Source: Candidatus Omnitrophota bacterium
GTDB taxonomy: Bacteria; Omnitrophota; Omnitrophia; Omnitrophales; Aquincolibacteriaceae
Assembly (NCBI GenBank): GCA_023247035.1
Contig: JAHFHG010000018.1
Coordinates: 1 to 39,884, forward strand
Direction of reading: 5' to 3'
DNA length: 39,884 nucleotides
How positions within the stretch are numbered: the first letter of the stretch is position 1; each line of letters starts with the position of its first letter. A program made the position numbers and the translations under genes. Below the pieces are notes generated by a model. That model saw nothing but the letters and a program-made list of their open reading frames with translations, had not been told where the DNA came from and ran no database searches. This document shows positions 34,069 through 36,234 of this stretch, piece by piece.

Positions 34069-34923
34069 TCAAGCGGATTGGCGTATGATCAGTTCGGGTG
34101 AGAATTCCTTTTGCACCGGGGGCTGCAATTTCCCTTCGACCAAGCCCAGCAGGATTTGGACCATTTCACGGCCCATCCGCTCGAGAGGCTGACGGATCGT
34201 CGTCAAGGAAGGAACGACATATTTCGCCCTCTCAATGCCGTCGTAACCCATCACCGCGACTTCCTCAGGGCACTTGATCCAGGATTCGCGCAAGGCCTTT
34301 AAAGCGCCGATCGCGAGATCGTCATTAAAACAAATCACCGCCCGGGGAAGCGGGTGGGAATTATGGATCATGTCCATCATTTTGAGGTAGCCGTCTTCTT
34401 CGAAGAAATAATCACATTTGCGGTAGTAAGACGGCTCAAATGACAATCCGTATTCTTTCATCAGGCGGCCATAGAACTGGAATCTTTCACGGGCGTCCAG
34501 CGAGTCCTCATCCGGCCCCTGCAGCATTCCGATCTTCCGGTAGCCCCGGTTGAGGAGATGCTTAAAAGCAAGCTCAACGCCGGTTTTATTATTGCAATAG
34601 ACAATGTTGGCCTTCACTTCCGGCGTGTAGTCATTGATAATCACCACGGGAAGTTCCGATCCCTCCAGAGATTCTCGAATGTGCTTGGGATGAATCCTCC
34701 ACGTCAAAAGCAGGAGCCCGGCGATCTCACGTTCCTTTAAAATTTTCCGCGTAGGGTCGGCATATTCTTCGTCCTTGACCATAATAAATTTGACGTCGTA
34801 ATCGCTCTCGCGCAGCGCGTCAATAATGCCGGCAATAATGCGGGTAAAATATTCGCTTTTGAAAATCTCGGGCGTGAAGGAAGTCAAAAGCCCTACCGTT
34901 CTTTGCGTTTTCATCTCGGACAT
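34069..34923 (-). CDS. LacI/GalR-type periplasmic-binding-like sensor domain without HTH
   Basis: GLLTSFTP..YFTRIIAGIIDALRESDYDVKF, VIINDYTPEV..IVYCNNKTGVELAFKHLLNRGYRKIGMLQG, FNDDLAIGALKALRE..PEEVAVMGYDGI, LTTIRQPLERMG; no LacI N-terminal HTH. Confidence 0.88.
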   Translation of the reverse strand: MSEMKTQRTVGLLTSFTPEIFKSEYFTRIIAGIIDALRESDYDVKFIMVKDEEYADPTRKILKEREIAGLLLLTWRIHPKHIRESLEGSELPVVIINDYTPEVKANIVYCNNKTGVELAFKHLLNRGYRKIGMLQGPDEDSLDARERFQFYGRLMKEYGLSFEPSYYRKCDYFFEEDGYLKMMDMIHNSHPLPRAVICFNDDLAIGALKALRESWIKCPEEVAVMGYDGIERAKYVVPSLTTIRQPLERMGREMVQILLGLVEGKLQPPVQKEFSPELIIRQSA

Positions 34924-34944: not shown

Positions 34945-35103
34945 TTATCTTCTTAGTTTTAAATCCGTTTTTTCAAGGATTTCAAAGGAACCCCTCCGGG
35001 CGCCGCAAACGCAAGAGCGCGGCTCACAGCAGCCCATCTTTGAAATAATCTTCCCACATTTACGGCATTTAAATTTGCATCTGAATCGGAAAAACCTCGG
35101 CAT
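34945..35103 (-). CDS. 52-aa Cys-rich basic microprotein (not in the supplied ORF track)
   Basis: MPRFFRFRCKFKCRKCGKIISKMGCCEPRSCVCGARRGSFEILEKTDLKLRR*; purine-rich AAGGAAAGGAACA just upstream of ATG; 7 Cys. Confidence 0.6.
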   Translation of the reverse strand: MPRFFRFRCKFKCRKCGKIISKMGCCEPRSCVCGARRGSFEILEKTDLKLRR

Positions 35104-35162
35104 TGTTCCTTTCCTTCTCGGGAACCGGCCGTGAATGACGATTGCCTCGGAAGACTGCGGAT

Positions 35163-35527
35163 CTATTCCTTTTTGTCAAGGACCCCATCCCCATCGGCGT
35201 CCGCATCTTGAGGATTGGGAATTCCGTCGCCGTCGATATCGGGGTCTTGCAGATCAGGTACCCCATCTCCATCGGTATCCTTTGTCTTTTGATCGAGAAT
35301 CCCGTCCCCATTCGCATCGGGATCGCTTGCGTTCGGTATTCCATCTCCGTCGATATCAGGATCTTGCCCATCCGGCAGACCGTCTCCGTCGGTATCCTGG
35401 AACTGTTCCGGCTGCGCTTTGGCTTTCACTTCGACCGTGGAATCCAAATCCTCTTCATTGGGAATCCCGTCGCCGTCGATATCGCCGTCCTGTTCATCCG
35501 GGATTCCGTCGCCGTCCTGATCGATTG
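35163..35527. repeat. DNA-level tandem repeats encoding the TSP3 motifs
   Basis: Recurring ATTCCGTCGCCGTCGATATC-type units on the plus strand. Confidence 0.75.
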
Positions 35528-36164
35528 TTTCCGTATCTTGCTTTTTCTTTTTTAAACCTTTCTGATCCGCAAGTTCATCAGGGAGGACTAAAAGTTTTTT
35601 GGTGTCGGTCAAGGCTTCGGGCTGCGTTTCCGCTTGAGCGGGATTTTCGTTTTCTGCGTCGTTTTTTTTGAATTTGAGGCCGCTCTCGGAAATCTGCTTC
35701 TGCCTTTTCTTTTGAAGCGCGTCAAGCCCGCGAAGGGAAAAATCTTCGCGCAGATTCGTTGAACGGTTTGGACCTTGGGAAGGATTTTGTTCCCCGCTAT
35801 TTTTGTCTTTCCGCTCTTTTTGCATTTCATATCCCGGATCCGGCTCCTCGGCGCTTCCCGGACTCAACGCCCCCTGATAAAAGGAATTCAGCCTGCTTCC
35901 GTTTATGGCGTAACGGCGGACCGCGGCCTGATGGGTGACGATATTTTGGGCCGGATTCTCTGCGGATAATTGAGGTGAGGTTTGTTTACTTTCCGGTTCC
36001 AAAGATTTGACCGGAGTTTGATTTTGATTCGCTTCAGGGTTGGTCGAAGGATCCGCTTGATCTTGAGCGCGTAAGGAAGGACAAAAAAGAAAGCCGGCCA
36101 GCAAAAGAAAAAGAAAACTTTTTTTCACGGAATGACAGACTTTTAACTTTTTCACTATTTCCAT
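35163..36164 (-). CDS. secreted thrombospondin type 3 (DxDGDG) repeat, putative Ca2+-binding protein
   Basis: Signal peptide (LLLAGFLFCPSLRA), Gln/Asn-rich middle, eight D-x-D/N-G-D-G motifs at C terminus; GGGAGG SD. Confidence 0.88.
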   Translation of the reverse strand: MEIVKKLKVCHSVKKSFLFLLLAGFLFCPSLRAQDQADPSTNPEANQNQTPVKSLEPESKQTSPQLSAENPAQNIVTHQAAVRRYAINGSRLNSFYQGALSPGSAEEPDPGYEMQKERKDKNSGEQNPSQGPNRSTNLREDFSLRGLDALQKKRQKQISESGLKFKKNDAENENPAQAETQPEALTDTKKLLVLPDELADQKGLKKKKQDTETIDQDGDGIPDEQDGDIDGDGIPNEEDLDSTVEVKAKAQPEQFQDTDGDGLPDGQDPDIDGDGIPNASDPDANGDGILDQKTKDTDGDGVPDLQDPDIDGDGIPNPQDADADGDGVLDKKE

Positions 36165-36205: not shown

Positions 36206-36234
36206 AGTATAATGTTCCTTACGGAGATTGTCAA
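36206..36234 (-). promoter_or_regulatory. sigma70-type promoter for the TSP3-repeat/microprotein/LacI-like gene set
   Basis: Minus strand TTGACA-N17-TATACT, 42 nt upstream of the ATG at 36164. Confidence 0.8.

Follow-up and report, generated by a model that had tools for sequence, protein, structure and literature searches.

The question raised by this locus is whether a short, cysteine-rich open reading frame lying between two larger genes encodes a genuine protein and, if so, of what kind. The window, by which we mean the entire stretch of 39,884 nucleotides analyzed, comes from an Omnitrophota-type MAG of 1.85 Mb, and the frame in question occupies positions 34945..35103 of its minus strand. 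The preliminary description, which had drawn attention to this 52-aa frame after the gene track had missed it, proved correct as to coordinates, strand, translation (MPRFFRFRCKFKCRKCGKIISKMGCCEPRSCVCGARRGSFEILEKTDLKLRR), cysteine pattern, spacers and the SD-like AAGGAAAGGAACA read directly 5' of the frame (35104..35116, minus strand). The seven cysteines (positions 9, 13, 16, 25, 26, 31 and 33) form the pattern CX3CX2CG...CC-X4-CXCG, and the product is strongly basic, as had been stated, with a pI of 10.2 and 16 K+R residues against 4 D+E. It is separated by 59 nt from the stop codon of an upstream TSP3-repeat gene and by 21 nt from the ATG of a downstream LacI-like gene. Such a composition is rare: of the 21 ATG-initiated frames of 45-60 aa in the window this is the only one with at least six cysteines, while 100 third-order Markov windows, each with about 61 such frames, contained none with at least seven and displayed the CxxC...Cx(1-2)C pattern at a rate of 0.01 per window.

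Searches for homologues with conserved cysteines, proposed in the preliminary description together with a dN/dS comparison, recovered one homologue, in the Omnitrophota MAG OFTM55 (loci L002/L030), which belongs to the same order as the window genome and to a different family. This 51-aa protein (pI 9.9) is 66% identical to the window copy (33/50 residues), shares six of its seven cysteines and is preceded by an SD-like AAAGGAAGG of its own; the two frames start at the identical ATG and end within two codons of each other. The 57 nucleotide differences between them fall predominantly at the third codon position (14, 12 and 31 at positions 1, 2 and 3), with 20 codons differing only synonymously and 17 nonsynonymously (dN 0.26, dS saturated). 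When an equal number of changes was placed at random, an identity of 33/50 was never reached in 20,000 trials, 88% of which contained a stop codon. The sense frame outscores every other frame, the runner-up being one antisense frame with 14 synonymous and 19 nonsynonymous codons, and significant DNA-level similarity between the copies is confined to the frame. The microprotein thus evolves under purifying selection acting on the protein. Because it has a homologue related to it by a coding substitution pattern, the frame is a real gene and not a chance occurrence, which bears out the earlier proposal of a small cysteine-rich gene at this position. By implication, gene tracks that stop at about 60 aa overlook genuine conserved genes in uncultured Omnitrophota. 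The same observations bear on the idea that the frame is a non-functional remnant of a larger zinc-ribbon protein, such as a degraded rubrerythrin or the zinc domain of a transposase: its similarities are limited to a domain usually found within larger proteins, and Zn_Tnp_IS91 gives the homologue a weak, sub-threshold match (E 0.0027), but the shared ATG, SD and near-coincident ends, together with the purifying selection evident in the substitution pattern, disfavour this reading, and we regard it as very improbable.

The distribution of the microprotein is patchy, with representatives in two of about 386 Omnitrophota genomes. A profile built from these two sequences, the only ones known so far, detected no convincing third member among 47 genomes of the order, 49 of the class and 386 of the phylum; in a scan of the genome contigs OFTM55 was the sole match, and no homologues were found in the viral contigs, plasmids or phages searched. 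Two further candidates were rejected. One (L018, G091:C1:875348, E 1.4e-5) reads 'TRWLPRSYRFCPEWYSKRAGK...' and is devoid of the CxxC of the first knuckle; by eye this stretch resembles an inverted repeat whose translation is like part of the microprotein. The other (L016 in G005, 40%) showed no comparable cysteine-rich frame on the matching strand and frame. Several weak matches in the phylum turned out to be the rubredoxin-like domains of rubrerythrin-type proteins, and these served as a pointer to the fold.

No domain library, including Pfam and NCBIfam, produced a match above its cut-off, and the leading sub-threshold matches were to zinc ribbons, among them RCKP rubredoxin, rubrerythrin, FmdB, HypA and the IS91 zinc domain. 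PF21349 scored 13.0 bits with the homologue, below its cut-off of 26.5, and NF045720 gave 18.8 and 12.8 bits, below its cut-off of 45. When compared by hhalign with rubrerythrin rubredoxin-like domains, the family gave a probability of 94.5% and a score of 35.1, albeit against a somewhat favourable set of Omnitrophota rubrerythrin-type proteins drawn from matches of the same profile; as 300 cysteine-preserving shuffles reached a maximum of only 21.4 against these domains, the similarity extends beyond cysteine spacing. An independent sequence search of the PDB pointed in the same direction, with rubrerythrin (1ryt/1b71, E 0.034) aligned over residues 9-44, as well as rubredoxins; matches to the zinc fingers 2i13 and 1mey were discarded since their scores were the sum of repeated CxxCGK snippets. 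AlphaFold models of both copies, built from two-row alignments, display three strands with pLDDT values of 78-79. Foldseek searches with the model of the homologue retrieved rubrerythrin as the top match (probability 1.00, E 0.08), followed by MCM zinc ribbons; over both models rubrerythrin is among the top matches, with TM-scores of 0.55-0.57 and E-values of 0.08-0.3, which are not significant, as is usual for so small a domain. In both copies the first knuckle is a CxxCG (in the window, codons C13-R-K-C16 at 35056..35067, minus strand, followed by G17). A CPxC second knuckle lies at ribbon spacing in the OFTM55 protein (CKKCG...CPFC), while in the alignment the window copy (CRKCG...CVC; codons C31-V-C33 at 35005..35013, minus strand) is one residue short, a difference at a likely metal ligand that would mean either that the window copy lost a codon in frame or that the OFTM55 copy gained one. 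Taken together, profile, fold and shuffle control show that residues 10-43 resemble the rubredoxin-like domain at the rubrerythrin C-terminus, to which the microprotein is closest. Of the metals offered in the preliminary description, zinc or copper, they favour a rubredoxin-like zinc ribbon over a copper protein for the putative metal site.

Other small proteins with cysteine knuckles offer further parallels. The bL33 proteins are likewise basic, of about 50 aa and equipped with two CxxC knuckles; this identity was rejected on a profile comparison of 0.4%, and the window genome encodes a separate bL33 of its own. The Ruc/Rv0991c and FmdB-type ribbons (TIGR02605, PF09723) are similarly small four-cysteine zinc ribbons, but the microprotein differs from them in knuckle spacing and residues and has no disordered tail; its FmdB family score of 15.2 bits falls below the cut-off of 31.3 and its hhalign score of 18.9 lies inside the shuffle range (maximum 21.6), and we accordingly rejected this assignment. 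As a separate observation, an FmdB-type zinc ribbon (PF09723) is present in 11 of 14 relatives and was not found in the window genome. Judged by their published descriptions, the haloarchaeal C(P)XCG zinc-finger micro-proteins, such as HVO_0758 and HVO_2753 of H. volcanii and Brz of Halobacterium salinarum, are also single-domain proteins of less than 70 aa with two cysteine knuckles and have accessory functions (PMC6562870, PMC11241148, PMC2253796), whereas the microprotein is bacterial and has six conserved cysteines. Such two-knuckle micro-proteins play accessory roles in regulation, biofilm formation and stress (PMC6562870, PMC2253796); of the predicted C(P)XCG zinc-finger proteins of Haloferax, however, several do not bind zinc, and AlphaFold still predicts the metal pocket once the cysteines are removed (PMC11241148), which tells against a zinc reading of the microprotein. 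The microprotein is best described as a new, small and unnamed family of an otherwise familiar kind, the bacterial zinc-ribbon microproteins.

With the rubrerythrin C-terminal domain (RUBY_RBDX; 1ryt, 1b71) the microprotein family shares the CxxCG...CPxC knuckles at similar spacing, complete in the OFTM55 copy, together with a predicted three-stranded ribbon and residues beyond the cysteines. It departs from that domain in being stand-alone and strongly basic, in its N-terminal extension MPRxFRFxC, in the extra conserved cysteines 9 and 26 and, in the window copy, in its CxC second knuckle, and all its family scores lie below the cut-offs. The microprotein could accordingly be a small iron rubredoxin-type electron carrier, a detached rubrerythrin domain serving as electron donor in the anaerobic defence against peroxide or oxygen: the site of its best fold and profile match holds Fe(SCys)4, and the homologue has a weak match to the NCBIfam RCKP-rubredoxin (E 0.0009), whose 18.8 bits fall below the cut-off of 45. 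However, typical rubredoxins are acidic, unlike the microprotein with its pI near 10, and they carry a CPxC where the window copy has a CxC; the latter, which in the homologue is a CPFC, speaks against an iron rubredoxin site and would better suit a structural zinc site. Moreover, inspection by eye of the frame lists of the window and of the 12-kb OFTM55 locus revealed no rubrerythrin, flavodiiron or superoxide-reductase gene, and we consider the electron-carrier reading unlikely.

The two cysteines in excess of the needs of a zinc ribbon are compatible with yet another role, that of a redox switch in which cysteine oxidation frees the zinc and activates a chaperone or regulator. Small zinc-ribbon chaperones of this type are known, M. 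tuberculosis Ruc (Rv0991c) being redox-activated (PMC7448276). Yet Ruc activity requires a disordered C-terminal tail (PMC7448276), of which the microprotein has almost none, and its similarity to FmdB-type ribbons is no better than that of shuffled sequences, making this role rather improbable in our estimation.

The Cys9/Cys26 pair, the pI of about 10 and the first strand with its many K and R residues point to an adaptor held together by zinc more than to an electron carrier, and we propose, with about even confidence, that the microprotein is a stand-alone metal ribbon, stabilised by zinc, that would bind a nucleic acid or protein partner. The CxxCG and CxC/CPxC knuckles (Cys13, 16, 31 and 33), the likely metal ligands, would hold one Zn2+ and thereby staple the three-stranded sheet, and the K/R-rich N-terminal strand would attach the protein to nucleic acid (RNA, DNA or the ribosome) or to a partner protein of acidic character; of these, nucleic-acid binding is plausible from the charge. 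The additional conserved cysteines, Cys9 and Cys26, may constitute a redox switch or contribute to metal binding. As almost all relatives are without it, the microprotein would be a small accessory adaptor and not essential. A more specific version, to which we attach a low probability, holds that a rubrerythrin-derived ribbon was freed and became a basic microprotein that binds nucleic acid or the ribosome and uses its second, conserved cysteine pair as a redox switch; if true, a fold that carries electrons would, within Omnitrophota, have taken on a regulatory function.

As to genomic context, the TSP3-repeat protein (35163..36164; Pfam TSP_3) is lineage-specific: for its N-terminal 203 residues, the 46 further genomes of the order yielded no match. 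It is secreted-looking. The LacI-like protein (34069..34923; Pfam Peripla_BP_3 only) comprises just the ligand-binding Peripla_BP part without an HTH. Both are encoded on the minus strand, a sigma-70-like promoter-like site TTGACA-17-TATACT (36206..36234, minus strand; 11/12 match in a consensus scan) precedes the TSP3 gene, and no terminator-like site was found on this strand between the three genes. With the short gaps, these features make co-transcription plausible and, judging by position, the microprotein gene probably shares a transcript with both neighbours, as the preliminary description had held. Such co-transcription would in itself say nothing of a shared function. A functional link to these neighbours is unsupported, because the homologue lies among different genes and the microprotein is missing from G001, the nearest of the relatives that retain the LacI-like gene (76% identity). 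In OFTM55 the homologue is flanked by genes that appear from their sequence to encode a short-chain dehydrogenase and an MscS-like channel, with neither a LacI-like nor a TSP3 gene adjoining, and in G001 the order o206-o220-LacI-like is uninterrupted, both TSP3 and the microprotein being missing from it. The arrangement is therefore particular to this lineage, and the microprotein emerges as a patchy gene with no fixed LacI-like or TSP3 partner, neither conserved neighbourhood nor co-occurrence having linked it to either. The preliminary description had held that a lack of homologues in relatives keeping the flanking genes would tell against it; this is what was found, and it counts against the linkage, while the gene itself stands on its homologue elsewhere. 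The genuine gene call can thus be separated from an attractive but unsupported story of operon partners.

One form of that story is a split regulator, in which the HTH-less LacI-like protein relies on the basic zinc ribbon to bind DNA, as its possession of Peripla_BP domains only and the location of the two genes 21 nt apart on one strand might suggest. Yet the microprotein was not found in the genomes of family members with LacI-like homologues of 70-76% identity (L032-L035; HTH-less in the three tested by Pfam), and OFTM55, which has the microprotein, has only more distant LacI homologues (36-38% identity), which lie at other genomic sites and have longer open frames, so that we deem this arrangement extremely improbable. 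Given its HTH-less homologues in relatives, the LacI-like protein looks like a member of a conserved family of LacI-type sensors devoid of DNA-binding domains. Finally, upstream of the homologue in OFTM55 (L030:13-5019) lies a gene for a 1668-aa protein with many repeats of the motif FPQPDG...LYWNG.
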